Below, one piece after another: positions 836-17,546 of a stretch of DNA of 64,000 bases; the stretch's first letter is position 1; the number at the start of each line of letters is the position of its first letter. The translations under genes were made by a program, and so were the position numbers. This DNA is from Cryptosporangium aurantiacum (lineage in GTDB: Bacteria > Actinomycetota > Actinomycetes > Mycobacteriales > Cryptosporangiaceae). Below the pieces are notes generated by a model that worked only from the letters and a program-made list of their open reading frames with translations, was not told the DNA's origin and did no database searches. The stretch is from NCBI RefSeq assembly GCF_900143005.1, contig NZ_FRCS01000019.1:1-64000 (forward strand), written 5' to 3'.

Positions 836-906
836 GTGTCCGAGGACCGAGCCCAACCATGAGCACACCGTCGCTGATACTGACCAGCGAAATCGCGCTT
901 CACTGA
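836..906. repeat. Left copy of element-end repeat, candidate attachment site
   Basis: This stretch aligns with 3497-3566 over about 70 nt, with one gap near the start and a divergent block of about 9 nt in the middle. Both copies open with GTGTCCGAG, the sequence at the 3' end of the tRNA-Leu gene (22609-22617 region). Together with the position of the first recombinase, this suggests the left end of an integrated element. The attachment-site role is inferred. Confidence 0.45.
859..906 (+). CDS. 15-codon mini-ORF, copy 1
   Basis: ATG to TGA encodes MSTPSLILTSEIALH. The second copy at 3519-3566 encodes a peptide of identical length, MSTPLFALTAELALV. The two share start, stop and frame, and several differences are synonymous or conservative (GCG/GCA, CTT/CTG, Ile/Leu, Ser/Ala). 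That pattern favours selection on a peptide over a bare DNA site, although the sample is tiny. There is no obvious Shine-Dalgarno sequence. Confidence 0.25.
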   Translation: MSTPSLILTSEIALH

Positions 907-916
907 GCGGGACGGA

Positions 917-1559
917 TCAGCCGTCCAGTTCCTCGATCCATTGAGCAACTGTCTGCTGGGTGTGGTGGATCGCGCCCGCATCGACACCCGTGGCTGTCCA
1001 GTCCTCGGGATCGAATCGGCGGACGGCTCCCAGCGCGTCCCGGAACGTCGCGCGAGTGAAGCCGGCGTCCTTCTCCGCGGCGAGCCGGAGGAGTTGTTCC
1101 TTCGTGAATCGGTCCAGGAGCGCGACTACGTCGATGTAGTCACGGACTTCCGCCCGGCCCCACAGCGCGAGGACTTTTGTCGGCGGCGAGGTCGTCGAGA
1201 TGGAGTACTGCGCCGAGTTCAAGGTCGACGGTAGGGCGGAGGCGCCCGCCGTCGGGGAAGATCTCGACTTCGCAGGCCTACCCGGTCCGCGGGTCGTGCG
1301 CGATGAAGCGATTGGCGTGCGGCGGTCGCGCCGCTTGGGTGATTTTCAGGCCGGCGGCGGTGAGTGCGCCTCGCAATGCCTCGGCGACTTGGACGGCCTC
1401 GTCGGGATCGATCTCAGTGAACAGGTCGACGTCGTGCGTCGCGCGGTCGACGAGGCCGTGGGCGATCATCGCGCCGCCACCGGCGAGCGCCAGGGTGTGC
1501 GCCTGCGGCAGCGATAGCGCGGTCTGGGTGATCTGCTCCTGGAGCGGGTCGAGCGCCAT
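917..1559 (-). pseudogene. AbiEii/AbiGii-type nucleotidyltransferase toxin, decayed
   Basis: The N-terminal frame begins with an ATG at 1557-1559 and carries a nucleotidyltransferase core: a Gly-rich GGGAMIAHGL segment followed by THDVDLFTE, with the two acidic residues expected in this fold. It is interrupted by an in-frame TAG at 1278-1280. Coding resumes in the same frame (CEVEIFPDGGRLRP) and then shifts at a run of four T on the plus strand (1175-1178) into the frame that finishes at 917 (KVLALWGRAEVRDYIDVVAL). Two independent lesions argue for a true pseudogene, although the homopolymer shift alone could be a sequencing error. It starts 2 nt after the upstream partner gene, the usual toxin-antitoxin layout. 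In the AbiE family the toxin is a nucleotidyltransferase. Confidence 0.75.
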
Positions 1560-1561
1560 CT

Positions 1562-1888
1562 TCAGGCGAAGCCCGCGGCGTCGATCAGCGGTTGCCAGGC
1601 GCGCCGGAGGTGGACCGGTAGCCAGAGCCGGTCCCAGAGCCGTACGAGTTCCCGACCGTTGATCAGTGACCGGATGTCGTCGAGGGTGCCTTCGCGCAGC
1701 ACGATTTCGTACAGCCGTGCCCGGCGGCTTTCCCGGCCGAGATCCCAGGTGACCGCCTCCGGATCCGGGCCGGTCCAATACACCCGCAGCGGCAGGTGGA
1801 CCTCGCCGTCCAGGGGGCCGCGCAGATCATCGACCGCAGACGGTAGCTCCGGGTCCTGCACCCAGCCCGGCCGGGCCGCCTCACTCAT
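1562..1888 (-). CDS. Putative partner (antitoxin-like) of the AbiEii-type toxin
   Basis: A 108-residue protein encoded immediately upstream of the nucleotidyltransferase remnant and ending 2 nt before its start codon. It has acidic and aromatic patches (VYWTGPDPEAVTWDL near residue 40) and a C-terminal helix-rich segment (RELVRLWDRLWLPVHLRRAW). I see no clear winged-helix motif. Short genes of this kind commonly precede AbiEii-like toxins in actinobacteria, so an antitoxin role is inferred from position. The chosen start is ATG 1886-1888; an ATG four codons upstream (1898-1900) is an alternative. It appears intact although its toxin is broken. Confidence 0.5.
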   Translation of the reverse strand: MSEAARPGWVQDPELPSAVDDLRGPLDGEVHLPLRVYWTGPDPEAVTWDLGRESRRARLYEIVLREGTLDDIRSLINGRELVRLWDRLWLPVHLRRAWQPLIDAAGFA

Positions 1889-2014
1889 ACACACCAGCAT
1901 AGTCAGAATGCCTGCGGCGATAGGCCCGGAACATGACCCACCATGCCGACCGGCGCCGGACGCCGCTGCATGGTCAACTGCGGTCAAGGGCGCCCGCCGA
2001 TCGAGGACGTCACG

Positions 2015-3412
2015 ATGACCACGTTGAAGCCCATCCCTGCTGATCCGTTCACCACCTGGATGGCCAGGCGACGACCGCGGTTCCGCCTCGATCTCGCTAC
2101 CGCTACCGCTCCCGCGCAGGGCCGGCGATTTGCGTTCTACGCGCGGACCTCGACCGTCGGCTTTCAGGACCCTTCCTCGTCGGTCGCCTGGCAACGCGAG
2201 GCCGCCACAGCGCTGATCGCCGGATCCGAGCGGATCATCGCTGAGTACGTTGATCTCGGCTGCTCGCGCCGCGTCAGATGGGAGCAGCGCCCCGAGGCGT
2301 CTGCGCTGCTCGCTGCCATTGGGTCAGCCAGCGCGAGATTCGATGCAATCGTGGTTGGTGAATACGAACGAGCGTTCTCCGGCCGCCAGCTCCAACAGCT
2401 ACTTCCGTACCTCACCGATCACGACGTCGAGCTATGGCTCCCCGAGTTCGACGGACCGGTACACCCCTGCGATCCGACACACGTGGCCGTCATGTTGCTG
2501 CTCGGGACGCAGTCAACGCGTGAAGTGCAGCGCTCCCGGTTCCGTGTCTTGGCCGCGATGCGATGCCAGACCATCGACCAAGGCCGATATCTCGGCGGCC
2601 GCCCGCCCTACGGCTACCGGCTCGTGGACGCCGGTCCGCATCCCAACGCGGTCCACGCCCAATGGGGACGCCGGCTACACCGCCTGGATCCCGATCCGGC
2701 GCCCGCCCTGAACGTGAGATGGATCTTCGCGCAGCGACTCTCCGGCTGCAGCCTGGCCAGCATCGCCCGTCACCTCAACGACGCTGGTATCAAGAGTCCG
2801 TCCGGCGCCGATCCCGGACGCAACCGCAACCGGGTCGGTGGGCCGTGGACGGTGCAGACCGTCGCCAGCGTGCTCGGCAATCCGCGTTATACCGGCCGCC
2901 AGGTGTGGAACCGCCAGGCCCGTGTCGATAACGTCCCGCCGGCCGGGTCCAGGCCAGGCACGCGGCGCTGGAATCCCGGTTATGACTGGATCGTCAGCGA
3001 GACGATTGCACACCCCGGTCTGGTCAGCGAATCCGACTTCGTCGCCGCCCAAGCGATCGACGCGACCCCCGGCACGCCTGTTCCGGCCCGGCGATACGCC
3101 TTGATCGGTCTGCTGATCTGCGCCATCTGCGGCCGCCGTCTCGAAGCGCATTGGTCCCACGGCCGGCCCGGCTACCGCTGCCGGCACGGCCACACCAGTG
3201 CCCGACGCAAACCAGCCGGCCATCCGAAGAACGTGTACTGGCGTGAAGACCACATCATCGACCGCGCCGCCGCACGACTCCGTGGAACCGCCGGGTCCGC
3301 CGACGTGCTCGACGGCCCGGAGACAGCGGCTCAGCTTCTGCGCGACACCGGCCAGGCGATCGAATGCGGCCAGGACGACGTCGTCCTCACCGCTGGCGTC
3401 AGCATCTGGTAA
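2015..3412 (+). CDS. Serine recombinase, element 1
   Basis: A 465-residue large-serine-recombinase protein. The N-terminal resolvase-type catalytic domain contains FYARTSTVGFQD with the candidate nucleophile Ser46. The mid region carries the recombinase-domain signature GRYLGGRPPYGYRL and NPRYTGRQVWNRQ. A zinc-ribbon-like segment follows (CAICGRRLEAHW and a later CRHGH). The start at 2015 is preceded by GAGG at suitable distance; an ATG at 1943 is possible but has no such site. Compared with the second recombinase (20979-22628) the long C-terminal coiled-coil is absent, but the end resembles shorter family members, so I do not call it truncated. Its stop lies 84 nt from the right copy of the end repeat, consistent with a recombinase at the element boundary. 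Confidence 0.85.
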   Translation: MTTLKPIPADPFTTWMARRRPRFRLDLATATAPAQGRRFAFYARTSTVGFQDPSSSVAWQREAATALIAGSERIIAEYVDLGCSRRVRWEQRPEASALLAAIGSASARFDAIVVGEYERAFSGRQLQQLLPYLTDHDVELWLPEFDGPVHPCDPTHVAVMLLLGTQSTREVQRSRFRVLAAMRCQTIDQGRYLGGRPPYGYRLVDAGPHPNAVHAQWGRRLHRLDPDPAPALNVRWIFAQRLSGCSLASIARHLNDAGIKSPSGADPGRNRNRVGGPWTVQTVASVLGNPRYTGRQVWNRQARVDNVPPAGSRPGTRRWNPGYDWIVSETIAHPGLVSESDFVAAQAIDATPGTPVPARRYALIGLLICAICGRRLEAHWSHGRPGYRCRHGHTSARRKPAGHPKNVYWREDHIIDRAAARLRGTAGSADVLDGPETAAQLLRDTGQAIECGQDDVVLTAGVSIW

Positions 3413-3459
3413 TCGACCGAACGTCGGAGACCACGAGTTTCCAGCCGAAAACGACGAGA

Positions 3460-3490
3460 CCCCCACCAGCGAAAACATCGCTTGTGGGGG
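3460..3490 (+). terminator. Hairpin downstream of recombinase 1
   Basis: A 13-bp stem with one mismatch (3460-3472 against 3478-3490) around the loop AAACA, followed by GTTTCTGTG. It stands 48 nt after the recombinase stop and directly before the element-end repeat. It could stop transcription or form part of the attachment region. Apart from this hairpin and the repeat, 3413-3782 holds no gene I can support. Confidence 0.55.
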
Positions 3491-3496
3491 GTTTCT

Positions 3497-3566
3497 GTGT
3501 CCGAGACCGAGCCGAACTATGAGCACACCGCTATTTGCGCTGACCGCCGAACTCGCACTGGTCTGA
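3497..3566. repeat. Right copy of element-end repeat, candidate hybrid attachment site
   Basis: Second copy of the repeat at 836-906. The segment TGTGTCCGAG at 3496-3505 is identical over 10 nt to 22608-22617 at the tRNA-Leu 3' end. If two elements were inserted in tandem, this would be the junction between the right end of element 1 and the left end of element 2. Confidence 0.45.
3519..3566 (+). CDS. 15-codon mini-ORF, copy 2
   Basis: Encodes MSTPLFALTAELALV, matching copy 1 at 859-906 in length, frame and eight or more residues. The same DNA can also be read in another frame from GTG 3499, so coding status is uncertain. It may be a leader peptide or simply part of a conserved recombination site. 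Confidence 0.25.
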   Translation: MSTPLFALTAELALV

Positions 3567-3782
3567 TTCGGCGAATCCCGAAGCCGAGCGAGGAGCGCGT
3601 CAGGCGCGGCTCCCGTTGACGGTCAACTCACCACGACCTGCTCCGGCTCGGCGAGGCAACGCCACGCCGGGACCCGCCGAACCTCTGCGGCACCAGCAAC
3701 GATGTCCAGCCGCAACAGAACCTTGCGAAGGGTCCCCCCATCGGAGCCGCCTGCTGGGTCTTCCACCACGACCGCCGACACT

Positions 3783-6761
3783 TCATAGACTCTTTATGCC
3801 GACAACGATACCTAGCTCCGTAAGGCGTTCTTGTATCCTCGCTGCCGCATCTGCAGGTAGGACCAACTTCAGAGTTCCTTGAAGATAGCTAATCTGCTGC
3901 TCATCAAGGGCTAGATACAGAAGTTTGAACAGACTTGCGTACGAGTCGGCGCTGTGCGTATCGCCGAGAATGGAGCTTGTGAACGAGAAAGTCACCTGCT
4001 TCTCGTCTGCACCAGAGCTCTCATCGCGCGGAGTGAACGCAGAGTCGTCAACCCTTGCAATTCGATCGGATGACCCATCTTTGACCGTCGACGCACCTGC
4101 ACCCCCGCTATCCACGGCAGGAGAAACACATTCACCGTCGTGCGCCGAAAGACCGCACACTTCACAAAGGTCCGGCCGAGGTCGGGCGAGCCTAAGACCT
4201 GTGCTGGTCAGATTAACTTGTCCCGGTGCGGTTACGGCAGCAGTGCTTCCCGTCCCATATACAACGTCAAGCTTCCCCTCAACAACAGCGTCGTAGATCG
4301 CCTGCTGCAAGTCGCGATCACCACCGTACAACAAGGGCAATCTGGGCGCACTGTAGAAAGCGGAACGAATGTCTGCGAGGGTCTTCCCGTAGTCTTGATC
4401 GCGCAAATTGAAAATCAGCGCCTTCGAGCCAAACTGACCTTTGTCAAAGACCTTATCTCGCTCCGCGAGGCTTTTCCACACCAACGTTCCATCAAGAGCG
4501 GTGTAATTGTCCTCGTCAAACGTTACTTCGTCAATATAACGCTCGCCGTCGGGGCTCGGCTGAGCCAGATAGATAACATGCTGAAAGGCACGCTTGAGAG
4601 CCTTCTCCAACTGCTGTTTTGCTGCCGCGAGCTCCTTCGTTCCAGTAGCTTTGAGATCGTCATCGCTTTGAACTTCCGGCGCAGCCAGCGCCCTCTGGCG
4701 TGCCAAATACTCGACCGCGACACCTCGTGCGAGACTGCGTCGCTGCGTGTTCGCAACCGCATAGACCGCACTACTTGCCCACTGCACCGGAAGGTCCCGA
4801 GCACCCCTCCCGAGCCCCATTGAGACATTGATAGCCGTCAATGTCGGCTCCTCCATCCCATTACGGAGGCTGTATTGCGACGGATCCAGTACGACCAGCC
4901 TACAGGTATAGGCCCTGTCGATACCCGCGGTCGTCAGCACGTCAGTGGCGTTCCGAAGAAGATCAGCCTTAACAAAGACAACGTCGCGAAAAGGACCACT
5001 GGCAACCAGACGCTGCACAAACTCCGCTATCACCTCGTCCCGCTCAACGTCGGTAATAGTTCGCCGAATGCTATTAACCAGCATTCGATGAGTAAGGCGA
5101 GTGGACAGGTAATAGCGGGCCGGCTTATTGTTTCCTTGGCCAGGTATGACTTCCACAGCACTCATGCCACGCGTCGGGTCTACAAGCTCTTCCAGGACTG
5201 TGTCTGCGTCCGTCAAGCTGTAGGTGACATCCGGAACGCTCATGGCCGCTTTAACTTCTGGTGCGCTTGCTCCGCGTCCACGGCCCGGTCGCAACGTACC
5301 GACGATACTCGCAAGGAAGATAAAAGTCGCGGCACGTTCGGCAGCTCGCGGGTTACTTGTCTTCCATTGCTGCTCTCGATCCATGTCCTGCTTACGTGCG
5401 GTACCAGAGGTACCATCGTGATTAACGACTTCAATCTCCGCAAGGCTACGGTAGTTCGCGATAGTGCGTTCATCTTCCACAAGCCCACTACCTAGCAATG
5501 CCTCCCGCACAGCACTATCAGAAAGCGGAAGATCTCCCGGACCCAACAACGACGGGACCCATTCGCCAACCCTACCTCGTTGCTGCTGCGCAAAAACAGT
5601 TGCTGCAAAGATCCTAATGGTGGAGCGGACACGTTGGAACCCCGTTACCTTGCTCCACTCCTCCTTCGCAATGCTCATAAGCATGGGGTGGAACGGATAG
5701 CACTCTGCGACCTGCTTTTCCCAATCCTGCTGCCAGCTATTGCCGGTCGCATCCCAGACGTTCTTCGCCCATGCCTTTTCTTTGAAGATTGGACGGTACT
5801 CACTGGCAGTAGCCGACAGCACCTCGGCCGCTGGCTCGGCTTCAAATAGCCGCCGCCGAAGAATATCCGCGAAATCTCCAACTTCGGTCACCGTGGCCGG
5901 AAGACCATTCCTCTCAAGTAGACTATTGAGATCATCTCGACGATCTCGCGCCTCTTTTGCGAGGGCAGTCTTGTCTCGCTCCGACGCAATCATCACAACA
6001 AGAAGTGCGACGCGCGGTACATCATTGATTACGTCCAGCAGAGCCCGGAGGAAGGCCATATCTTGCGCCGCGAGATCCGGCCTGGAAACCCCCTCCAGTC
6101 CGTTTCCGACGTAGTCCATGATCTCATCGATAATGATCAGGACCGGCCGATTGATTGCCTTTATGGCTTCGGCGATCTTATTCTTATCGCTCCAGTACGG
6201 TGCGTACCGTTCATACAGCGAATAGTCCCGGCTAAACAACCGCCAAAGGAACCGCTCGTAGAGACTAGTCGCGGGCCCATCAAGCTCCTTAACGCCTGCG
6301 CCTGGAGTCATATTGTCGCAAGGCAGGACTACGACATGCGGGCGACCAAGGTCAGCATCGAGATCGTGGCCAAGACGCTGCTTGGCCCGAGATGAGATGC
6401 CGCGGCCGAGCTCGGTCTCCATTAGCGCTCGGGGGTTGGCCCCGAGGTGATAAGCGCCGATGCAAGCGTGTGACTTCCCGCCGCCCATTCCCTGGTCGAG
6501 GCGAGTTACGGCGCGAGCTTTCAAATAGCCCTCACCTCCACCGATACGGATAGCGATTTCCGACAGGAGGTCTATCAATCGCTCGGTAGGGTGCGTAATC
6601 TCGCCATAATAGCCGGCATCCGCATACAGGGGTCGACTGACGCCAGATGCATGGACGGCCTGGAAAAGCGACATCTGAACATCGTCAATCTGACCCGCAG
6701 CGGTGACGATCTCGGAGCGAATTTTAAGCACCTTCCACCAAGGTGTTACCTTCGCTGCCAT
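3783..6761 (-). CDS. DUF499 P-loop ATPase of a defence-type cassette
   Basis: A 992-residue protein. Visible features are a Walker A variant GMGGGKSH at residues 91-98, a Walker B stretch PVLIIIDE at 206-213, long helical regions, and a late CEVCGLSAHDGEC zinc-knuckle-like motif near residue 865. This is the layout of DUF499 proteins, ATPases found beside DUF1156 methylases in defence islands. It is the last gene of a three-gene operon and begins 57 nt after the methylase. The predicted role is ATP-dependent action on DNA or protein partners during discrimination of foreign DNA; no activity is shown by the sequence itself. The gene is visibly less G+C-rich than the flanking genes, a sign of transfer. 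Confidence 0.85.
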   Translation of the reverse strand: MAAKVTPWWKVLKIRSEIVTAAGQIDDVQMSLFQAVHASGVSRPLYADAGYYGEITHPTERLIDLLSEIAIRIGGGEGYLKARAVTRLDQGMGGGKSHACIGAYHLGANPRALMETELGRGISSRAKQRLGHDLDADLGRPHVVVLPCDNMTPGAGVKELDGPATSLYERFLWRLFSRDYSLYERYAPYWSDKNKIAEAIKAINRPVLIIIDEIMDYVGNGLEGVSRPDLAAQDMAFLRALLDVINDVPRVALLVVMIASERDKTALAKEARDRRDDLNSLLERNGLPATVTEVGDFADILRRRLFEAEPAAEVLSATASEYRPIFKEKAWAKNVWDATGNSWQQDWEKQVAECYPFHPMLMSIAKEEWSKVTGFQRVRSTIRIFAATVFAQQQRGRVGEWVPSLLGPGDLPLSDSAVREALLGSGLVEDERTIANYRSLAEIEVVNHDGTSGTARKQDMDREQQWKTSNPRAAERAATFIFLASIVGTLRPGRGRGASAPEVKAAMSVPDVTYSLTDADTVLEELVDPTRGMSAVEVIPGQGNNKPARYYLSTRLTHRMLVNSIRRTITDVERDEVIAEFVQRLVASGPFRDVVFVKADLLRNATDVLTTAGIDRAYTCRLVVLDPSQYSLRNGMEEPTLTAINVSMGLGRGARDLPVQWASSAVYAVANTQRRSLARGVAVEYLARQRALAAPEVQSDDDLKATGTKELAAAKQQLEKALKRAFQHVIYLAQPSPDGERYIDEVTFDEDNYTALDGTLVWKSLAERDKVFDKGQFGSKALIFNLRDQDYGKTLADIRSAFYSAPRLPLLYGGDRDLQQAIYDAVVEGKLDVVYGTGSTAAVTAPGQVNLTSTGLRLARPRPDLCEVCGLSAHDGECVSPAVDSGGAGASTVKDGSSDRIARVDDSAFTPRDESSGADEKQVTFSFTSSILGDTHSADSYASLFKLLYLALDEQQISYLQGTLKLVLPADAAARIQERLTELGIVVGIKSL

Positions 6762-6818
6762 TTCATCCCCTCACAGGCTAGCTCGCAGAGCAATCGGCAC
6801 CGACCACCTTGGTTGATC

Positions 6819-9572
6819 CTACAGAAGAGTAAGTTGCCCGTCACCACCGCCCTCGCCACGCAGGAAACGAGCCTCGGCAGCCGATGCCGCGGTCTCTGCC
6901 GCAGTCGCGATGCCCCCTCGACTGCGCAGGATCCGAGTGAACGCAATTGCATCAGGGTCGTTATCGGGGAGACGGTCAGCCAAGAACTGAATGGCTGCCC
7001 ATAGATATACGTCGTCGGCCGGACGCCCAGATGACGAAATGACCTCGCCCATAGCCCCGAGTCCTTGATCCGACGCAGCGGCCAATGCCAGAACCACATC
7101 GATTACTGCGGACTCACTTCCAACCCGACCCTTGAACGCACGTGCGGAAGTGAATCGAATTCCGCCATCGACGTCGTTCACTAGATCCCGAACATCCGCA
7201 ATTTCGAGCGAAGACGCAAGAGTTTGCCATCTCAGCTCCGACTTGGCTTGAACCTGTCGACCGTAGAGCCGAATCCACCAAAGCGCAAATCGCGTCCGCG
7301 AGTCAAAAGTCTCCAACGGATAGTGATCGACTTCTACAGCCATTGCAGACTGGACTGCGGCCCGAGCCAATGGAAGAAACTTATGAATCTCGACGGACTC
7401 ACCCTTTGCATCGAGAACGTTTGAATAGCGTCCTACCACCTCCATGGCAGGTCCAGCCGCAGCCATCAACATATCCGCCGGTGCTAGCCCCCATCGCTCC
7501 CAATCAAGGTAGCGGCGCTTGATTTCGGCCACAATTTCGGCTTCGACCGAACCTTTTCTACCTGGGAGGCGGCCTGACGGCGCAGGCCGACATGACATGG
7601 TCAAAGTGGTTTGTATATTGGCCTTACCTTGATGACTGCCAGACTCTGTATTAGCCGGCCAAGATGCAGTCATAATGAGGCCCGCCTTCTGAAATCCTTC
7701 GAGAAGGCGGCGCCAGACTTCAATATCGCCAGAGCCGAAGACTATCGTCACAAGCCCAACCGGCCGAACAACCCGCGCCATCTCCGTAAAGGACTCTACT
7801 ATCCTTCTGTCGTAGTGCTCACGCGTCCTATGCTCGCCTGGCGCTTCACCGCGCACGCGCTTGACAATAATTTCGTCCTGCTTCTCCTGCGCTCCATGCG
7901 GGTCGACACTGATCGCAATCTCTGGCATGAGCGAATGCAGCGCTCGCTTGGCCCATACGTACATCACATCCGACGAGTCCGCGTACGCAAGCATTTCATC
8001 GTAGGGAGGATCGGCAACTACCGCCGCGATACTCGAAGAGCGCAGTGAAAGCGCCGTTGCACTTCCCCTGGTGACGTCAGTTGGCGTCCCTTTGGGCAAG
8101 CCATCCATGAGGTTTCGAAGCGTTGACACCTCGCTGGCAGCGATTGAGTCCCAAGTTCCTTGACCAGATCCGATACCCACCTCAAGGAAATCATAAGAGT
8201 ACCCGATTGAACCTTGGTTCGAATAGATATCGTGTGCGGCTTGAACTTTGACGTCAAGCGTGCACGCTCGCCCCGAACGTCGTACTTTGCGAACCAGAAC
8301 AGCGACGCAATACGTGGCTAGCGCTTTCACATATTCTCTGCTAAGCCCGGCTGTTTCTAGATCGGCCCCCACGGCGCCGATAATCCGCGCCAGCCTTACA
8401 AACGCCAGTGTCTGCCTAGCGTTCATATACTGGCCAAAACTTTTTACACCATAAATAGAGGGACCGATAATGTTGTTATTTCCCGGGGCGATTCTTTCAT
8501 CTGGCACAGCTGGAATGCCTGGGGCGAACTCCGGTTCCTCTTGCAGCGCGCGACCTGCCGCCACTGCAGCGGTAAGCTCGGCAGGAGACGCGGCGCGATA
8601 TGATTTTCCAACGCGGCTATCTAGATCGGAGACGATTAGGAGTGCGTCCCTGCCAAAACCCTCGTCAGTTAGTCGGCGATGGAGGCTCACCGGATGAGGA
8701 TGCGAGCAGAAAATACACTTCGCCGACTTTCCGGCAATTTTGGTTCCGTCGGACTTGGTCAGGTTCGCCAGAGTCGGTTGCTCGCGCGGGGGACCGTCGT
8801 GGACGACGACCTCGAACGATCCGTGTTTGTGATCTGGCTTGACAAAGAATGACTGACCTGGGTCTTTAAAATCTGGTTCGCCCCTACGGCCCTTCTTTAC
8901 GCTCGGTTTGCGCAGCTCGTATGATGCAACGAGCGGAAACCGTCGCCCACAATCTTGACACGGCAACGTTACCGCCCACAAGTAGGCCCAGGGATGGAGG
9001 CCGGCCGCTTCCGGATAAAACTCCTGCATGGACGCGGAGTATTGCCTAGATACTTCCTGAAGAGTGATCTCTACATCTCGCACGAGGCGGGGCCGCGCAT
9101 CCAGCAGCGCATGCTGACCGGACTCAAACGGAAGCTCTGGTTCGCTATCCCAAGAGCGAAATGGATAGTCGGTTAGTGCCAAACTCGCCAGTACGGCGAT
9201 AGGGCTATAGTCGACTGCCAGCGACCGTAGCCCCAATCTTGCTGCCTCCAACGGAATCATGCCTCGCCCGCTAAACGGGTCCAAAACCTCGGCGCCGTCG
9301 GGGTTTGTCTCACGTATAAGCTTTTGCAGTTCGAACCTAGCGGCATATCGGCCCTGCATTGCTTCCGTAACAAGAGCCTGAATGCGCTTCTGCTCGTCGA
9401 TATCGTCCGGCCATGGAAGAAGTGAGCAGATGACCGCGGCCTTTGCCTGCGCCGGCGGCCGAGCAGCGAACCACGGAAAGAGCGTCTTTTCGACCTTTCC
9501 GTGCCCCCAACCGGTTGCGGCCGCCCGCGAAACCTCACTGCAAGGAAACCATCGTTCAATCAGGCGGGTCAT
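6819..9572 (-). CDS. DUF1156 DNA methyltransferase with zinc-ribbon
   Basis: A 917-residue protein. The N-terminus (RLIERWFPCSEVSRA... AARPPAQAKAAVICSLLP) is the DUF1156 signature. SAM-binding motif I is DPFSGRG at 98-104 and the catalytic motif IV is DPPY at 521-524, the spacing of an N6-adenine or N4-cytosine methylase. Cysteine pairs CQDC (205-208) and CIFC (286-289) look like a zinc ribbon inserted between the motifs. Its ATG overlaps the stop of the upstream helicase gene as ATGA, so the two are translationally coupled. In this context it probably marks host DNA or modifies DNA during defence. Target site unknown. The gene is A+T-rich relative to its surroundings. Confidence 0.88.
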   Translation of the reverse strand: MTRLIERWFPCSEVSRAAATGWGHGKVEKTLFPWFAARPPAQAKAAVICSLLPWPDDIDEQKRIQALVTEAMQGRYAARFELQKLIRETNPDGAEVLDPFSGRGMIPLEAARLGLRSLAVDYSPIAVLASLALTDYPFRSWDSEPELPFESGQHALLDARPRLVRDVEITLQEVSRQYSASMQEFYPEAAGLHPWAYLWAVTLPCQDCGRRFPLVASYELRKPSVKKGRRGEPDFKDPGQSFFVKPDHKHGSFEVVVHDGPPREQPTLANLTKSDGTKIAGKSAKCIFCSHPHPVSLHRRLTDEGFGRDALLIVSDLDSRVGKSYRAASPAELTAAVAAGRALQEEPEFAPGIPAVPDERIAPGNNNIIGPSIYGVKSFGQYMNARQTLAFVRLARIIGAVGADLETAGLSREYVKALATYCVAVLVRKVRRSGRACTLDVKVQAAHDIYSNQGSIGYSYDFLEVGIGSGQGTWDSIAASEVSTLRNLMDGLPKGTPTDVTRGSATALSLRSSSIAAVVADPPYDEMLAYADSSDVMYVWAKRALHSLMPEIAISVDPHGAQEKQDEIIVKRVRGEAPGEHRTREHYDRRIVESFTEMARVVRPVGLVTIVFGSGDIEVWRRLLEGFQKAGLIMTASWPANTESGSHQGKANIQTTLTMSCRPAPSGRLPGRKGSVEAEIVAEIKRRYLDWERWGLAPADMLMAAAGPAMEVVGRYSNVLDAKGESVEIHKFLPLARAAVQSAMAVEVDHYPLETFDSRTRFALWWIRLYGRQVQAKSELRWQTLASSLEIADVRDLVNDVDGGIRFTSARAFKGRVGSESAVIDVVLALAAASDQGLGAMGEVISSSGRPADDVYLWAAIQFLADRLPDNDPDAIAFTRILRSRGGIATAAETAASAAEARFLRGEGGGDGQLTLL

Positions 9573-12500
9573 ACGTTGCTCCCCGGAGCATTCTTGAGAC
9601 TAGTTCCTGGAACTCGGAAAATCGCGTCGCCAGTCATCTCTGCGGCGAATAGGAGCGCGGGGTCCTGATATGCCCCAAACATTCGTCCATGGCCGTCAGC
9701 GCATTTGTCCACGACATACAGCCAGTACTCATTACGTTGCTGGGTTGCGATTAGAACCTCGTTGCCAGTCATTCGGATGCCGTCGCTTGCAGCGTTTCCG
9801 AGGACGCCCTTCACCTCGATGTGCCGCGTTTGACTGTTCCGGCGGGCGTCCAAGTCATACCCGCGTCCCTCAAGATGAACATCTTCGACCGTCCATCCGT
9901 CGGACTGGAGCATATATTGGACATGCTTCATGGAAATCAGCTCAGAGTTCAGGTCGTCAGCGATACCTGAGTCCGCCGCGGCGTGCACGCGAATCCGGCC
10001 CACAAGCTTGGGCTCGGTAAGGTCCACTTCTGTCAGACGCTCGAGCTGAAGGATACGCGCCGTTGTTTGCAGCTGTAGTTGTCGGCGGAGTGCGAGGCGC
10101 GTACTGCGATCGGCTATCCCTTCAGTGAGACTGAGCGGTAGATTCGCCAGGTCCTTTCGTGCCTGAGAGAACCAGTCCGTTCGAACACGTCGGTGCTCGC
10201 CGATTGTCTGGCTCGCCATTCTTTCAGCTTCCGATTTGGAACTCTCAAATCGTGCCGGATGAACAGGCGTGCCAGTCCGAATGGATGGGACAAGGTTTGC
10301 AAGCGTCTCCCAACGAATGGCGCGAGCATTCCCGCTGTCGTCAACCTTGATAAGCACGGCCCATGTGCTTGCGCGCTTACCTTCGTTCTCAGAGAGCGTA
10401 GCTTCATAAGCATAGAGGTCGTAAGGTGTTAGGCTCGTTGGGTCGTCAACGCCGCCCGATTGATACATGTCCTCGGTAACAGACTGAGCGACCATTCCGA
10501 TTAGATCGGTGAAGCCGGGTTCTCCGGGGCCGAGGGTAATCGTGTCGGCTATATCTATCACGCCCGCAGCTGTACGGATCGCATCACCACTAGTTGCAAT
10601 GTGAACTCCCGTGCCACCGCCGAGGCCGGAGGGTAGCTCGCCGGAGTTCAGAGTCAATCGCCGGAAGCCTGCGCCTGCGGTCGTAAGTTCAACTTGCATA
10701 ATGCCAGCCGTAGAGAGGCGGTCCAAGTACGCTTCCACAATTGCTGGATTAATGCGAGCGAAGAGATCCCTCTGCAATAGAGTCAACGCGGCTACTGCGT
10801 CTACCTGGCTTGCAAGCTTACGTTCGGTGTCCCGAACCTTCCGAGCGGCCCTAGCCAGTTCCTGAGCTTGAATCGCTGTTGCTGCGTTTATCGCTGCTTG
10901 TTTCTTTCTATCGTCATTCCCGTAAAGGTCTGACAACCACTTTTCGTATTCAACCCCTGTTATCTCTGCCACTGCTGAGAGGCTGTCGAACATCTGGCCG
11001 CGCAACTCATTCGCAGCAGTCATAAAGTTGTCGAGGAGACGGATTAGGGTATCGCCTTCGCGGGTGTCCACCGCGACAAGGTTGTACAGATGGACGTCGC
11101 GGTTCTGGCCGACTCTATGAATTCTTCCCATCCGCTGCTCAAGCCGCACAAGGGACCATGGGATATCGTAGTTGATCAACACATGGGCGGCCTGAAGGTC
11201 GATTCCCTCGTTCCCAGCATCGGTGGTAACGATAATCTGGAACTCTTCTCGCATAAACGCGCTGCGGATCTCATCGCGCTCTGCTTTGCTCTGACGGCCG
11301 GAATATACCCGCGCAGTGAAATGCTCAGACGTCAGTCTATCAACGATCCAGGTCGCCGTATCGGCGTATTCGGTAAAAATCACGGCTTGCTCCGCACTTC
11401 CCGGAGTGATTCCGTGCGGTCGAAGACAATCGTCTATTGTGCGCTTCCATTTGGAAGCACGCCACTCGGCGGAGGCCATCGACTGTTCAATATTTTCGAT
11501 AAGAACTTTGATTGCACTGCGCTCTGCTCGAGCGGAGGTCGAGCCGGAGTGAACGACCCGCGCCTCATCGGCCTCGCTCTCATCGCCCAGATAATCTTGA
11601 TCCGCGTTGAGGGCAGCCTCCGCCTCGCTCATCTGCCCCATCAGGGCGCTTCGCCGGCGTAGTGTCTCCGCTAGCGCAAATAGGCTAGATGCCGCTCGCT
11701 TACCGTAAACCATCCGTGCGAGGGGTTGAGCAGTCGGCGCGAAGAATTGGTCAACCATATCCAGTGCGGACTGATAGTAACTGTATTCGACTTGCGACAG
11801 AGGAATGCTTTGATTTGAGGCGGTTCGTCCTTTGAAGAGGCGCGTCCTTCCATCGTAATCAACTAGATCTTCCTTCATTCGGCGCAAGAAGTGTATTGGT
11901 CCAGGACGCAGGGCGCTCAAGTCGACGTTCGGGTCACTACCAGGGTCGGGATAGATCTGTGGGTCAACTAGGTGGAGCAAGTGGCGAAACAACCACTCTT
12001 TCCCGCGGTGTGGCGTGGCGGTCATTAGTAGTGCACGCGGGGTGTTTTTAGCGAGCAGCCTACCGACCTGGTGGTATGCGGTTGCAGTCGGCGTGAGGCG
12101 GTGCGCTTCGTCGAAGACGACGAGATCCCATCCGGCTTTATCTGGGCGAATTGCTTCCAGGACCGCTGGATTCACGGCCGCAAGTTCGAGGCTAACTACC
12201 CACAGATCGGCGCTGTTCAGCGCGTCTTCGCGGATCGTTGCAGAAGTAAGCTGGCGAAGCCCACCATTGAGCAAGCGCGCAAAATCGTCTACCCACTTGG
12301 TCGCCAGATTTGCCGGGCATACAATGAGTGCGCGACGGACCAGCCCAAGACGCTGCATCTCTCGAATGTAGAGTCCCGCCATAATTGTCTTGCCGGTCCC
12401 CGGTTCATCTGCCAAGAGGAAGCGCAGTTGAGGCTGGGGAAGCATTGCACCGTACACGGCTGTTGTTTGGTGGGCGTAGGGCTTCAGAGGCGTAGACGCT

Positions 12501-12775
12501 ATCGCACTCGTCTCGGCATTCGCCGCTGCGGCACCCATCCATAGTGTCCACATCCCAGCGAGAACCCTCGCCGAGTCGGCCCTCCCATCGCTAGCGAGGA
12601 TGCGGACCGTGTGGTCATCGCCCGGTGAAAGGTTTATCTCATGACGGTGGCCTTCATCGTCCACGACGATGAGGTCAACTGCGCCCGGCTCGTCGGCTGG
12701 CAAGACGTAGCGGATCGTAGCAAATTCGGGCACGCCAACCGAACGAACCCGGACTCGCTGGCCCTTCTCGAACAC
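9569..12775 (-). CDS. SNF2-family helicase with C-terminal DUF3883-like domain
   Basis: A 1068-residue protein and first gene of the cassette. The SNF2/RapA-like ATPase has Walker A DEPGTGKT (123-130), DEAH (222-225), SATPHRG-type motif III (MTATPHRG) and a C-terminal helicase lobe with TDAGNEGIDLQ and EQRMGRIHRVGQ. The last ~120 residues (GRGYDLDAR...HIEVKG) look like a DUF3883/PD-(D/E)xK-like module, with D, then E-V-K spaced as in nuclease folds; catalytic activity is not assured. The start is a GTG (12773-12775) with GGGGAG just upstream. It may translocate on DNA to license cleavage or modification together with the methylase and DUF499 ATPase. Confidence 0.88.
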   Translation of the reverse strand: MFEKGQRVRVRSVGVPEFATIRYVLPADEPGAVDLIVVDDEGHRHEINLSPGDDHTVRILASDGRADSARVLAGMWTLWMGAAAANAETSAIASTPLKPYAHQTTAVYGAMLPQPQLRFLLADEPGTGKTIMAGLYIREMQRLGLVRRALIVCPANLATKWVDDFARLLNGGLRQLTSATIREDALNSADLWVVSLELAAVNPAVLEAIRPDKAGWDLVVFDEAHRLTPTATAYHQVGRLLAKNTPRALLMTATPHRGKEWLFRHLLHLVDPQIYPDPGSDPNVDLSALRPGPIHFLRRMKEDLVDYDGRTRLFKGRTASNQSIPLSQVEYSYYQSALDMVDQFFAPTAQPLARMVYGKRAASSLFALAETLRRRSALMGQMSEAEAALNADQDYLGDESEADEARVVHSGSTSARAERSAIKVLIENIEQSMASAEWRASKWKRTIDDCLRPHGITPGSAEQAVIFTEYADTATWIVDRLTSEHFTARVYSGRQSKAERDEIRSAFMREEFQIIVTTDAGNEGIDLQAAHVLINYDIPWSLVRLEQRMGRIHRVGQNRDVHLYNLVAVDTREGDTLIRLLDNFMTAANELRGQMFDSLSAVAEITGVEYEKWLSDLYGNDDRKKQAAINAATAIQAQELARAARKVRDTERKLASQVDAVAALTLLQRDLFARINPAIVEAYLDRLSTAGIMQVELTTAGAGFRRLTLNSGELPSGLGGGTGVHIATSGDAIRTAAGVIDIADTITLGPGEPGFTDLIGMVAQSVTEDMYQSGGVDDPTSLTPYDLYAYEATLSENEGKRASTWAVLIKVDDSGNARAIRWETLANLVPSIRTGTPVHPARFESSKSEAERMASQTIGEHRRVRTDWFSQARKDLANLPLSLTEGIADRSTRLALRRQLQLQTTARILQLERLTEVDLTEPKLVGRIRVHAAADSGIADDLNSELISMKHVQYMLQSDGWTVEDVHLEGRGYDLDARRNSQTRHIEVKGVLGNAASDGIRMTGNEVLIATQQRNEYWLYVVDKCADGHGRMFGAYQDPALLFAAEMTGDAIFRVPGTSLKNAPGSNV

Positions 12776-13202
12776 GTCGCTCCCCTGTGCCTGCGCTATG
12801 CGAACTTTGGCACACTACAGTCGCGCGTCCGACGGAGGATGGATCATCGCGGCCGCACCGCCCTCTGCGTCGGCTCGCTGCTCTCCAGGGCGGTCCTGAG
12901 CAGCTCACGATCGCGTGCGTGCACACGTCCGACCTTGGCGCTGGCGGTCGCCGACAAGCGCACGGACTTGGCCGCGGCCCTGCACGGCACGTCGCGGGGG
13001 TGATCGCAACGGCTCACGTTACGGAGATGTATGTGAAGACTGCAGGAGATCTGGCTGGTCGTCACGCGAGTAGTCGGGGAGATTGGCCCGCTGAAGTCGA
13101 GCAGCCGCTTGGCGGACGCTAGCCATCATGTATGCCGTATAGTGCATTTTGATTCCGATCGAACGGAGCAAATTCCGGTGCGGTCCCTTAAGTTGTGCCA
13201 GC
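12776..13202. other. Intergenic region upstream of the defence cassette
   Basis: No gene is well supported. On the minus strand a promoter-like pair (TTCGAT, 16 nt, TATACG) lies near 13135-13165, pointing toward the cassette, and is followed by a short doubtful frame starting MMASVRQAAARL. The cassette promoter may be here or nearer the GTG start. I see no direct repeats. Confidence 0.3.
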
Positions 13203-13505
13203 TCAACTGAAGGCGCCGGCCAGCATCGCGGCCGCCCGATCATTCGGGCAGACAGCCTCCGCCAGCGCCATGACCAACTCGTCGTCGCCAGTTTCGCCCA
13301 TCCAGTACGCCATGGCGTCCACGACCGCGATCCTCTGCACTGGCGTTAGGTGAGGCACGCGCTTCTCCAGGATCCGACCGGCGGCCTGGCGCTGTGCGAG
13401 CGTCACGACTCGTCCGACGCTGACGGTGTCCCCGTTCAGCGTCATGAGCGTGTAGGGCTCGAACTCGGTAGCCCCTGCATTGTCGGGGCGTGACTCGGCT
13501 GACAT
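13203..13505 (-). CDS. Hypothetical 100-residue protein
   Basis: Acidic small protein of unknown family: residues 1-30 are polar, then a helical section (VVTLAQRQAAGRILEKRV, LTPVQRIAVVDAMAYWMGETGDDELVMALAEAV). Start taken at ATG 13503-13505, preceded by GAAGGCGG, a weak ribosome-binding site; the same frame is open further upstream. The helical repeats resemble small regulatory or antitoxin-like proteins, but I cannot assign a function. It is encoded on the same strand as the neighbouring XRE-type gene. Confidence 0.5.
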   Translation of the reverse strand: MSAESRPDNAGATEFEPYTLMTLNGDTVSVGRVVTLAQRQAAGRILEKRVPHLTPVQRIAVVDAMAYWMGETGDDELVMALAEAVCPNDRAAAMLAGAFS

Positions 13506-13650
13506 CTGGCACCGCCTTCGGATAGTCCGGCCGCACATCGTTCGGTGCGTGCAGTCGATACCGAGGCCGGTGACGAATGAACCTCCCGCGGGGACGCTGG
13601 CCGGGACGTCCGCCACGTCCCAGGCGGTCCATAACGGATCGGCCGATCGT

Positions 13651-14364
13651 TCAGGTCGTGGGTGTCGAGCTGGCCCAGATGCGTTCGAAGCTCGCCAGGT
13701 ACGTGCTCGCCATCGAGTCCGGTCCTGCACGCCTGACATGGAGTACCGGCGCGCGCGATGCGCCCAAGCCGTAGATGTGCGCGTTGACGAGTACGTCGTC
13801 GTCGCCGCGGTACAGCGAGTTGTAGAGCACCGTGTCGTGCACCCGGGCCTCTACGCCCGGCATCTCCAGCAACGGTCGCGCCAGCACGAACGCGCTGCGT
13901 ACCTTCGCGCCGAGCGCAGCGCCGATGCCTTCCTCGGCGCCGCGCGCTTCAACGTCCGAACTCTCCGGGTCACCGAAAGCCATTCGTACGCGAACCCCGG
14001 ACTCCGCGCGTTCGGCGAGTACCCGGAGGAGTCCGCCGTCCTCGACGAGGAACAGTCCGCTGTAGACGAGTACATCGATGCTCTCGCGGGCCGAGACGAA
14101 CAGGCCGAGCCAGACATCTCGGGGTACGGCTCCGCGGTGCGGATAGACCGTTACCACGCCGTCTGCCCGGTCGCCCCCGGCCTCGGGCCATAGGGCGTTC
14201 TCTGCGACCTCCAGCAGGTCGGCTAATGCCCACCGATGCCGCTGTCGGGGCCGCCGGCCGTGGCACCACCGTTGGACGGTCTTGGGATCGACGCAAAGCG
14301 CGGTAGCGACGTCGACGTCTTGAAGGCGCTTGTTGGCTAACGCCTGCCGGAGCGCATGGTTCAC
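13651..14364 (-). CDS. XRE-type regulator with PLD-like C-terminal domain (DUF5919-like), paralogue 1
   Basis: A 237-residue protein. Residues 1-60 form an XRE/Cro helix-turn-helix (DVATALCVDPKTVQRWCHGR). Residues about 70-235 carry a second domain (VVTVYPHRGAVPRD, SIDVLVYSGLFL, RVRMAFGDPESS, HDTVLYNSLYRGDDDVLVNAHIYG), the layout annotated as DUF5919 and suggestive of a phospholipase-D-like fold, but without a clear HxK pair. The GTG start follows GGAGG at good spacing. A close paralogue lies at 16556-17293, and both share an upstream sequence box. Such genes recur in actinomycete integrative elements; a regulatory or nucleotide-sensing role is inferred. Confidence 0.75.
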   Translation of the reverse strand: MNHALRQALANKRLQDVDVATALCVDPKTVQRWCHGRRPRQRHRWALADLLEVAENALWPEAGGDRADGVVTVYPHRGAVPRDVWLGLFVSARESIDVLVYSGLFLVEDGGLLRVLAERAESGVRVRMAFGDPESSDVEARGAEEGIGAALGAKVRSAFVLARPLLEMPGVEARVHDTVLYNSLYRGDDDVLVNAHIYGLGASRAPVLHVRRAGPDSMASTYLASFERIWASSTPTT

Positions 14365-14410
14365 GGTTCCTCCACTGAGAGTGAGGAGTCAGGCGCAAGG
14401 TAGCACAAGA

Positions 14411-14428
14411 CGTCCCTAGAAGTCCCTG
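14411..14428. promoter_or_regulatory. Box shared by the two XRE/DUF5919-like genes, copy 1
   Basis: CGTCCCTAGAAGTCCCTG differs at only two positions from CGTCCCTAGACGTCGCTG at 17308-17325. Each box stands upstream of one paralogue in the same orientation, 47 nt from the start codon here. This suggests a common operator, perhaps for autoregulation. Confidence 0.5.
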
Positions 14429-14514
14429 CCCGTAGTAGGAGCGTCCGGGGCTATCGCCCAAACTCGAATCCCGCAGGGGGACCTGACTATTCACGTTCGA
14501 GAAGGGAACCGACG

Positions 14515-14979
14515 TTGGCCGGCACGCACACGGCATGGCGCGTCTACGTCGACATCGCAGCGGCCATTCAGCAGCGAATCACGAACGGCACGTACGGCCC
14601 GGGGCTGCGGATCCCGTCCGAAGCGAAGCTCAGTGCAGAGTTCGGCGTCGTCCGGAACACGGTCCGTCGGGCGCTGACCGCGCTGGAGCGAGAGGGCTTG
14701 ATAGTGACGGTCCCTGGCCACGGTCGCGTGGTGCCGCATCCTGGGGCGACGACGGAGGAGACATCCGCCAGCACCGGCTACCGGCTCATCGCGGCAGAGC
14801 TAAGGGCCAGCATCGGCCGTGGCGAAGTAGCACCGGGCGGGCGCCTTCCGTCGGAAGCATCGCTGGCCGCAGCCCATGGCGCCTCGCGCGCGACCGTGCG
14901 ACTCGCGCTGTCGGAGCTCATGCAGGAAGGGCTGGTCGAGCCGATCCAAGGCAAGGGGTGGTTCGTCCGTTCTGACTGA
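14515..14979 (+). CDS. Tandem GntR-type repressor (KorSA-like)
   Basis: A 154-residue protein made of two GntR winged helix-turn-helix units: residues about 10-70 (IPSEAKLSAEFGVVRNTVRRAL) and 85-152 (LPSEASLAAAHGASRATVRLAL). There is no separate effector domain, so the tandem wings make up the whole protein. It starts with TTG preceded by GAAGGGA. KorSA-type GntR repressors regulate transfer and integration genes in actinomycete integrative elements, and this gene sits in such a module. The near-perfect palindrome starting 12 nt after its stop and a related site at 17488-17508 are candidate operators. Confidence 0.8.
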   Translation: MAGTHTAWRVYVDIAAAIQQRITNGTYGPGLRIPSEAKLSAEFGVVRNTVRRALTALEREGLIVTVPGHGRVVPHPGATTEETSASTGYRLIAAELRASIGRGEVAPGGRLPSEASLAAAHGASRATVRLALSELMQEGLVEPIQGKGWFVRSD

Positions 14980-14990
14980 CCGGTCCTAAC

Positions 14991-15015
14991 CTTGCACATG
15001 TGCGACATGTGCAAG
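14991..15015. promoter_or_regulatory. Perfect 11-3-11 palindrome, candidate GntR operator
   Basis: Arms CTTGCACATGT (14991-15001) and ACATGTGCAAG (15005-15015) pair exactly around GCG. The GTG start of the HD-domain gene lies inside the palindrome at 15000, so repressor binding would block initiation directly. The half-sites recur at 17488-17508 before the transfer genes. Confidence 0.65.
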
Positions 15016-15563
15016 TGGACCGGGCACGCGCGCTCGCGGAGTCTCTACTCGCCGAGCCGCTACCCCGTCGGTGGGCGCATTCGCAGGCCGTTGGTGCTCA
15101 GGCCGAGACTCTCGCGCCGCTGTTGGGACCAGAGACCGCACTGCTGGAGTCGGCCGCCTGGTTGCATGACATCGGCTACGCACCATCGTTGGCTCATTCG
15201 GGCTTCCATCCGCTCGACGGCGCCCGCTATCTACGGGACGTCGAGCACGCGGACGAGTTGCTCTGTCGGCTGGTCGCGCACCACTCGTGTGCGGTAATCG
15301 AGGCGGAAGAGCGCGGGTTGGCCGCCGAGCTGACAGCGGAGTTCGCGCCGCCGCCGGCTCACCTCTCCGATGCGTTGCTCTACTGCGACATGACCACCGG
15401 CCCGTCCGGTGAGCGCCTCGACGTGGAACAGCGCCTAGCTGAGATTCACAGTCGCTATGGCGACGAAGACATCGTCAGCCGCTCCATCCGGCGGGCAACT
15501 CCGAGCATCGTCGCCGCGGTGGAGGCAACCACAGCGGCGTTGGCACGCGCGACAGCCGATTAG
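15000..15563 (+). CDS. HD-domain protein
   Basis: A 187-residue metal-dependent phosphohydrolase-type protein. The HD signature is visible: H in RRWAHSQAVG near residue 27, the HD pair in AAWLHDIGYAP near 55-56, H in VAHHS near 95, and a later acidic D in LYCDMTT. Such proteins hydrolyse nucleotides or phosphate esters; the substrate is unknown. The GTG start is embedded in the palindrome 14991-15015 and has no Shine-Dalgarno sequence, so translation may be leaderless. HD-domain genes are common cargo in actinomycete integrative elements. Confidence 0.78.
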   Translation: MRHVQVDRARALAESLLAEPLPRRWAHSQAVGAQAETLAPLLGPETALLESAAWLHDIGYAPSLAHSGFHPLDGARYLRDVEHADELLCRLVAHHSCAVIEAEERGLAAELTAEFAPPPAHLSDALLYCDMTTGPSGERLDVEQRLAEIHSRYGDEDIVSRSIRRATPSIVAAVEATTAALARATAD

Positions 15564-16054
15564 GCGTCCGGCCGGCTCGGTGCATCCGGGCGCATGCGCT
15601 CCGGGTTGCGGTAGAGGAATCCCTGCTCGTCGCGAGTCCAGAACCATCCGGCGCTGTCCAGAAACTCGATCTGGACAGGTTCAGGCGAGTAGTACGACTT
15701 GAGCCACTCCTCGGGCGCCGGTCGCTTGATCGTCTGGCCCGGCGGCACTAAGCCGACGAACTCTGACTCCGCCGCCTCGTCCGGTCGCGCAGGCAACGGA
15801 AGCGCCGTCTCGTAGATCGGCATCTCGCTGGCGTTGTGCACGTGGAACATCAACTCGGGCTTGCCGTCACGCGCGTGCTGGATGGCTACCCAGGCGCTGA
15901 CCTTCGCGGCTTGTGCTCGACGGTCTTCCTCGGCGTGGCTTTCCTCGCGTCGGTGTTCGCGTCGGAAGAGCACGAACCCGACGCCGAACGCGCCCACCGT
16001 GCCGAGCGCTGCAAACGCGTCCGCGCCGGCTTGGATCCAGTCGGTGACCGCCAT
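15560..16054 (-). CDS. Membrane-anchored hypothetical protein
   Basis: A 164-residue protein with one N-terminal membrane segment (residues 12-31, AFAALGTVGAFGVGFVLF), then a basic/acidic heptad-rich linker (RREHRREESHAEEDRR) and a soluble domain with conserved-looking SGWFWTRDEQGFLYRNP at the C-terminus. No enzyme motif. It begins 3 nt after the NUDIX gene and converges on the HD gene with a 4-nt overlap. The fold resembles small membrane proteins often encoded in actinomycete elements, but its function is unknown. Confidence 0.6.
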   Translation of the reverse strand: MAVTDWIQAGADAFAALGTVGAFGVGFVLFRREHRREESHAEEDRRAQAAKVSAWVAIQHARDGKPELMFHVHNASEMPIYETALPLPARPDEAAESEFVGLVPPGQTIKRPAPEEWLKSYYSPEPVQIEFLDSAGWFWTRDEQGFLYRNPERMRPDAPSRPDA

Positions 16055-16057
16055 CCG

Positions 16058-16534
16058 CTAGCCGAGGTACGGCGTCGGACGTTGTTCGAGGTAGTGACCA
16101 ATGCGCAGCCGCATTGACCGGTCCATCGTCAGGCCGTCGACATCGCTCGGCTTGACCCAGTGCACCTCGCGGGACTCGCTGCTCGTCGTCGGCTCGCCTC
16201 CGACATAGCGAGCGGTAAAGACGACGGAGAACTCCTGCCGCACCTCGTCATTGCTCGTGTAGTGGATGAGGTGCTTCGGGTCCGTGTAGATGCCGACGAG
16301 GCCGGTGATCTCGCAGTCGACGCCGGTCTCTTCCTTCGTCTCGCGGACGCCGCACGCGGGCAGTGATTCGCCGGGGTCCATGCCGCCACCCGGCACGGCC
16401 CAGTTGCCGTTGTCCGTGCGGAGGATCATGAGGATTTCGCCCGCGTCGTTGGTGACCACAACGTTCGCCGAGGGCACCACGCTGTTCGCGGCCGGCGCGT
16501 CCGGGTCGTCGTAGTAGTCAATCCGTGCGCCCAC
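16058..16534 (-). CDS. NUDIX hydrolase
   Basis: A 158-residue NUDIX protein. The NUDIX box is complete: it begins GGGMDPGESLPACGV and continues RETKEETGV (residues about 48-71), with the REXXEE metal-binding glutamates. NUDIX enzymes cleave nucleoside diphosphates linked to other groups; the substrate here is unknown. It is encoded between the second XRE/DUF5919-like gene (21 nt upstream) and the membrane protein, all on the minus strand, likely one transcript. A NUDIX gene (nud) is a recurring part of the regulatory module of pSAM2-like elements, which fits the transfer genes nearby. Confidence 0.88.
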   Translation of the reverse strand: MGARIDYYDDPDAPAANSVVPSANVVVTNDAGEILMILRTDNGNWAVPGGGMDPGESLPACGVRETKEETGVDCEITGLVGIYTDPKHLIHYTSNDEVRQEFSVVFTARYVGGEPTTSSESREVHWVKPSDVDGLTMDRSMRLRIGHYLEQRPTPYLG

Positions 16535-16555
16535 GCGGGCCGCCTCTCTGCTCGG

Positions 16556-17293: not shown

Positions 17294-17307
17294 TGCCCCC
17301 GGAACTC

Positions 17308-17325
17308 GTCCCTAGACGTCGCTGG
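17308..17325. promoter_or_regulatory. Box shared by the two XRE/DUF5919-like genes, copy 2
   Basis: CGTCCCTAGACGTCGCTG, 16 of 18 positions identical to 14411-14428. It is 15 nt upstream of the start codon of paralogue 2, close enough to overlap its ribosome-binding region or leader. Confidence 0.5.
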
Positions 17326-17508: not shown

Positions 17509-17546
17509 TCGCTTTCTCTCGGCAGCTCCTTCGAAAGGAAGCAGCC

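Follow-up and report, generated by a model that had tools for sequence, protein, structure and literature searches.

What kind of system do three low-GC genes form near the left end of a Cryptosporangium aurantiacum contig? The genes lie at positions 3783-12775 of the stretch analysed here (the window: 64,000 nucleotides, positions 1 to 64,000 of NZ_FRCS01000019.1). An earlier note, made from the letters alone, saw in them a compact version of a larger defence system in which one protein may join motor and effector. We find that the operon belongs to the Hma, or Type-1 bacteriophage exclusion (BREX)-related, family as an actinobacterial member without HEPN; it is restriction-modification (R-M)-like and complete with three genes. 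It sits as cargo in an integrative element at a tRNA-Leu gene. Among its relatives, the core of the methylase HmaB diverges independently of near-identical partner proteins, suggesting that HmaB carries the specificity of the system.

The hma operon and its relatives

The open reading frames and their domains confirmed the three genes, which run on the minus strand in the order hmaA, hmaB, hmaC. hmaA and hmaB overlap by 4 bp, and 57 bp separate hmaB from hmaC. Promoter and terminator scans were uninformative.

9569-12775, minus strand: hmaA, 1068 amino acids, GTG start; SNF2/Swi2 helicase fused to a C-terminal NOV_C (DUF3883) domain, a predicted PD-(D/E)XK-type nuclease (Pfam, PADLOC)
11108-12484, minus strand: HmaA helicase core, residues 98-556, with DEPGTGKT, DEAH, TAT and QRMGRIHR motifs intact (motif inspection)
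9695-9943, minus strand: predicted NOV_C nuclease domain of HmaA, residues 945-1027, with E945, D974, E987-x-K989 and E1006 (Pfam, 12-homologue alignment)
6819-9572, minus strand: hmaB, 917 amino acids; DUF1156-like DNA methylase, predicted N6-adenine type (Pfam, PADLOC, NCBIfam, conserved motifs)
8001-9212, minus strand: HmaB residues 121-524, from just past motif I through motif IV, with four Cys; presumed target-recognition domain (TRD), the part exchanged among relatives (alignments)
6873-7625, minus strand: C-terminal part of HmaB, residues 650-900, which stays with its HmaA/HmaC partners; proposed docking region (identity comparisons)
3783-6761, minus strand: hmaC, 992 amino acids; DUF499 AAA+ ATPase (BrxC-like) without an N-terminal HEPN domain (Pfam, PADLOC, conserved motifs)
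6468-6491, minus strand: Walker A motif of HmaC, GMGGGKSH, residues 91-98 (invariant in alignment)
3786-3989, minus strand: C-terminal domain of HmaC, residues 925-992, after a hypervariable linker; RRM-like according to the published family description, PMC12839542 (identity comparisons)

The best PADLOC model for each protein was its Hma namesake (HmaA 5.5e-92, HmaB 3.6e-42, HmaC 4.6e-32), in agreement with the defence-family assignment of the earlier note and with the published Type-1 BREX-related system, and membership in this family is very likely. Pfam likewise returned the predicted DUF499, SNF2 and DUF3883 profiles: HmaC matched DUF499 (6.8e-20), and HmaA matched SNF2-rel_dom (4.7e-14), Helicase_C (8.5e-22) and NOV_C (DUF3883, 6.6e-17), with RapA as its best solved relative. 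The Walker B pair of HmaC, D212-E213, is invariant, as is Walker A. For HmaB, which matched N6_N4_Mtase (3.4e-7), the proposed DUF1156 identity held in part: it is backed by PADLOC and by NCBIfam DUF1156_antiphage (1.4e-21, below that model's own cut-off), but the Pfam DUF1156 score was 15.4 bits against a cut-off of 24. Motif I of HmaB reads DPFSGRG (residues 98-104) and motif IV DPPY (521-524); D98..R103, D521-PPY524 and four cysteines (C205, C208, C286 and C289) are invariant. An m5C assignment of HmaB by Payne et al. 2021 (PMC8565338) is at odds with the DPPY motif and with a later paper (PMC12839542), both of which indicate an N6-adenine-type enzyme.

Does the C-terminus of HmaA carry a nuclease, as its D...E-V-K spacing had hinted? 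The motif is real and conserved: E945, G972, D974, E987, V988, K989 and E1006 (numbered as in the window HmaA) are among the positions invariant in 12 NOV_C-domain homologues, some of them just 20% identical, in an alignment that excluded the relative L056 discussed below. The invariant E, D, ExK and E residues form the PD-(D/E)XK signature. The NOV_C family match, the residue conservation and the 2013 assignment of DUF3883 support a nuclease fold; a profile search with the domain against solved structures gave a chance match only. Thus, a SNF2 motor and a probable nuclease, the latter judged by family match and conserved catalytic residues, are joined in one chain as anticipated.

The trio recurs in at least ten relatives. 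It is found in the same order and with no other conserved gene in a Pseudonocardiales metagenome-assembled genome (L035) and on four Rhodococcus plasmids (L038-L040 and L042), and also on a Mycolicibacterium plasmid (L041), in four further genomes (L044, L045, L055 and L056) and on a contig from a viral collection (L070). Homologous operons do not require further genes, a point that the earlier note had left to be checked. More distant actinobacterial relatives that carry HEPN on the ATPase likewise carry NOV_C on the helicase. Few genomes hold a strong full-length homologue (3 of 299 in the order and 2 of 401 in the family of genome G010), and the relatives are mostly plasmid-borne. Most of the viral-collection loci other than L070 matched generic helicase motifs only, and a search of phage records gave no match.

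Several hma operons of relatives are damaged or have other genes inserted. On R. rhodochrous pGD02.2.1 (L038, 5023-13956), hmaA and hmaB are each split by an IS256 copy and the operon is dead; on R. pyridinivorans pNAPH (L128:4249-8488), an ISL3-type element interrupts hmaB. The HmaA match on the M. vanbaalenii plasmid (L041:7757-11207) begins at residue 222, so that the Walker A part appears to be missing, and adjoins TIR- and HIT-domain genes. In T. thermophilus plasmids (L129-L134), HEPN-type hma operons have a divergent helicase, and Fic, HicAB-type and helix-turn-helix (HTH) genes are inserted around hmaB and hmaC.

Exchange of the HmaB core

Which subunit carries the specificity? Two Rhodococcus plasmids, L038 (R. 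rhodochrous) and L039 (R. pyridinivorans), encode HmaA proteins that are 96% identical, HmaC cores that are 98% identical and HmaB C-termini that are 96% identical, yet HmaB residues 141-640 are just ~57% identical. By residue, HmaB identity is 96% over 1-25, mostly 32-88% over ~26-575 and 84-100% from 601 onward. At the nucleotide level, identity is mostly 85-99% in the flanks and falls off over some 100-200 bp at each edge. Two IS256 copies split the L038 operon, so that decay could explain this pair if it stood alone; two further clades were therefore compared for the same pattern. (i) In five HEPN-type Rhodococcus operons, HmaA (97-98%) and HmaC (94-98%) are nearly identical, whereas the 100-residue bins of HmaB fall to 45-80% over residues ~200-700, except in one pair with a common HmaB; among 25-residue bins, those at 351-525 are the lowest. 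(ii) Among five T. thermophilus plasmids, HmaC identity is 99-100%, whereas two HmaB stretches, ~351-375 and ~451-475, drop in some pairs to as little as 24%; both lie after motif I (135) and before motif IV (539). The Thermus comparison covered HmaB and HmaC, HmaA being cut off in most fetched regions.

Thus, HmaB cores diverge independently of near-identical HmaA and/or HmaC partners in three clades, mainly between motifs I and IV. In the clade of the window operon, HmaB-core identity was also uncorrelated with that of the other modules (rho -0.21 to 0.17), in contrast to HmaA helicase and HmaC core (rho 0.65), a test made on 28 non-independent pairs from 8 taxa.

Judged by where they differ and how far, the divergent cores probably recognise different sites. 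If HmaA read sites independently, a changed HmaB specificity would expose host DNA, and recognition by HmaB for both activities is therefore the simplest reading. On balance we favour HmaB as the sole interchangeable specificity subunit: its core would be swapped by recombination, and an unchanged helicase-nuclease and ATPase would follow the new target, restriction reading its site through HmaB as in Type I R-M systems. Fast divergence of TRDs in general has been mentioned (PMC12839542). We did not find HmaB exchange described for BREX-related systems, and the words 'swap' and 'recombination' do not occur in that paper; a search for methylomes of Thermus in which a motif had been assigned yielded nothing of use. 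Near-identical HmaA and HmaC with different HmaB cores on Rhodococcus and Thermus plasmids make the subunit that carries specificity in BREX-related systems testable in existing strains. Examples are the Rhodococcus plasmids NZ_CP120358, NZ_CP015530, NZ_CP103310 and NZ_CP113801, and pVV8 of Thermus thermophilus HB8. The comparative evidence for HmaB exchange, together with the mapped element described next, is what this analysis adds to the literature that we found.

The carrier element

How did the operon reach this genome? Consistent with the proposal of transfer within a mobile element, we found an integrative element of 19.1 kb (~3496-22617) with an integrase, an FtsK-type ATPase, att (attachment) ends and a tRNA-Leu target. 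The hma genes are carried immediately inside the left end of this element, as its cargo.

3496-3529, plus strand: left end; att core TGTGTCCGAG (3496-3505), then element-end motif ACCGAGCCGAACTATGAGCACACC (sister-element end; 0 matches in shuffled windows)
17624-18715, plus strand: DUF2637 membrane protein (Pfam, congener comparison)
18896-20680, plus strand: FtsK/SpoIIIE-type transfer ATPase (Pfam, congener comparison)
20979-22628, plus strand: large serine recombinase, the integrase (Pfam; 96% identical homologue at the same site in G002)
22608-22617, plus strand: right att core TGTGTCCGAG at the 3' end of tRNA-Leu (sequence match)
22609-22692, minus strand: tRNA-Leu(gag), the integration site

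Nudix, HD and HTH genes also lie between the cassette and tRNA-Leu. A long tRNA repeat was not found as left attachment site, and the left end was located through the end of a sister element in the congener G003. The element-end motif ACCGAGCCGAACTATGAGCACACC occurs at the left ends of sister elements (L118:4713 and L119:15106) and at window position 836. The latter marks a tandem remnant to the left of the element (836-3496), with 2.7 kb between its left-end motif and the next att site; the remnant's serine recombinase (1943-3412) is 42.5% identical to the integrase and lacks the C-terminal part.

The elements of congeners G002 (L118:4713-18566) and G003 (L119:582-15106) share this backbone, with 68-93% DNA identity by segment, and occupy the same tRNA-Leu, but they have no hma gene. 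In the corresponding slot, G002 has an AAA_21 (OLD-like) ATPase together with a protein that bears a NucS_C nuclease domain, and G003 has a DUF6119 protein and an unknown 845-amino-acid protein. Part of ftsK and of the integrase gene is deleted in G003. The element thus has an exchangeable slot for defence-type cargo at one tRNA-Leu. The hma genes have a GC content of 56-57% (57-60% at third codon positions), against 72% for the remaining window. Other genes of the element have 75-83% at third codon positions, so that even within its carrier the cassette stands out as foreign in composition.

Mechanism, alternatives and known systems

How would the operon act? In the mechanism that we consider likely, HmaB would recognise a short DNA site and methylate an adenine in host copies of it, and HmaC would assemble or gate the complex on DNA. 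Where HmaB met an unmodified site, HmaA would translocate on DNA and its C-terminal PD-(D/E)XK domain would cut. HmaB would be the only sequence-specific part, a change of its core altering modification and restriction together, and its constant C-terminal third may dock to HmaA/HmaC. By this route the window copy would presumably defend against phages.

Several points weigh against this mechanism. AlphaFold folds were unusable for HmaA residues 590-1068 (predicted local distance difference test score, pLDDT, 42) and for HmaB (pLDDT 37), the models being poor because the usable input amounted to three sequences. In genome G931, an otherwise intact operon (L056, HmaA 48% identical) encodes a HmaA in which, by alignment, the nuclease glutamate E987 is replaced by V and E945 by D (L056:3919-7170). 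This is possibly a natural nuclease-dead member, and cutting by Hma systems may not always be needed. To these are added the sub-threshold Pfam score of HmaB, the non-independent pairs of the correlation test, the restriction of the Thermus comparison to HmaB and HmaC and the reliance on position and divergence for site recognition.

Could the nuclease domain be dispensable, the operon blocking replication without cutting, as is thought for BREX, or acting by abortive infection? The missing glutamate in L056 fits this, as do the Type-3 BREX homologues of each of the three parts and the 21% of Type-1 BREX-related helicases that lack the fusion (79% are fused to an active PD-(D/E)XK nuclease; PMC12839542). 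However, catalytic residues that stay invariant in 12 homologues down to 20% identity indicate selection for activity, and we regard dispensability as unlikely. It is also doubtful that the operon mainly serves the integrative element, excluding rival plasmids and elements or acting by addiction, more than it defends the host against phages. Such a role would suit cargo just inside the element's left end, relatives that are mostly on plasmids and the other nuclease and ATPase cargo in the same slot of congeners, but it is compatible with phage defence, and for this family Liu 2024 (cited in PMC12839542) reports antiphage activity of the helicase-nuclease.

Alternatively, HmaA alone might recognise unmethylated sites in a Type II/III-like restriction, HmaB merely protecting the host by matching methylation. 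Although HmaA has its own motor and nuclease in one chain, it is 96-98% identical where the HmaB core has been replaced, and a new methylation specificity would then leave the host unprotected, so that we judge this quite improbable. That the operon is a new compact version of the larger DUF499/DUF1156/DUF3780/phospholipase-D system, the view of the earlier note, has next to no chance: DUF499 and a DUF1156-like methylase are shared and anti-phage NCBIfam scores are detectable, but those models reach 63-76 bits against cut-offs of 1000-1200, and among published subtypes the three-gene form is the most frequent (2446 taxa; PMC12839542), so that literature and trio recurrence refute it.

We return to the mechanism in which HmaB recognises, HmaC assembles and HmaA translocates and cuts, and ask which known systems the operon resembles. 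DISARM (defence island system associated with restriction-modification), which has DrmA, DrmB and DrmC together with DrmD, was rejected: HmaA scored 229 bits against DrmD, whose equivalog cut-off is 610, and no other DISARM gene was present among nearby scanned proteins. With Type-3 BREX (BrxC, BrxXI, BrxHII) it shares homologous parts, and BrxHII models match HmaA (5.3e-53), but Type-3 systems, BREX and BREX-related alike, have PglZ (PMC12839542) and were rejected since no PglZ (PF08665) was found in the genome, which is 98.5% complete. Type-2 BREX-related systems have related DUF499 and DUF1156 proteins but add DUF3780 and an HKD (phospholipase-D-type) domain on the helicase (PMC12839542); neither occurs in the proteins of the scanned region, which with the low NCBIfam scores excludes this type. 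In agreement with the earlier note, the proteins scanned around the operon included no DUF3780, HerA or phospholipase-D partner. For DUF3780 and the phospholipase-D protein, which are components of the sister Type-2, this absence is expected.

The HEPN-DUF499 R-M operons of Anantharaman et al. 2013 (PMC3710099) have a SNF2-DUF3883 fusion beside a DUF499 ATPase, with DUF3883 described as a novel restriction endonuclease domain; the window ATPase lacks their HEPN RNase domain. The carrier resembles actinobacterial integrative and conjugative elements (AICEs) in its tRNA site, serine integrase, FtsK-type transfer ATPase, Nudix and HTH regulators and defined ends; it differs in that a replication initiator was not identified in it.

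The closest match is Hma, the three-gene system of HmaA helicase, HmaB methylase and HmaC ATPase named by Payne et al. 2021 (PMC8565338), which has the same genes and order, needs no extra gene and is the best PADLOC match throughout. The window copy is a divergent branch with few strong full-length homologues, and its HmaC lacks the HEPN domain present in many members. The same system is described as Type-1 BREX-related by Rakesh & Krishnan 2026 (PMC12839542): ATPase, methylase and helicase only, the methylase with a DUF1156 N-terminus, motifs I and IV and a TRD insert with a 4-Cys finger, and with a TUDOR domain at the helicase N-terminus, an RRM at the ATPase C-terminus and an HTH triad at the methylase C-terminus. 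In gene content, helicase-nuclease fusion and methylase insert we found no difference between it and the window system, which has a DUF499 ATPase, a DUF1156-like methylase with 4-Cys insert, a SNF2 helicase with a predicted PD-(D/E)XK domain and no other component. Helicase, methylase and DUF499 ATPase are thus the complete published system and not a reduced one; since that system already has three genes and a helicase-nuclease fusion, the two points once thought novel are not new. The operon is a further example of a widespread, already published defence system.

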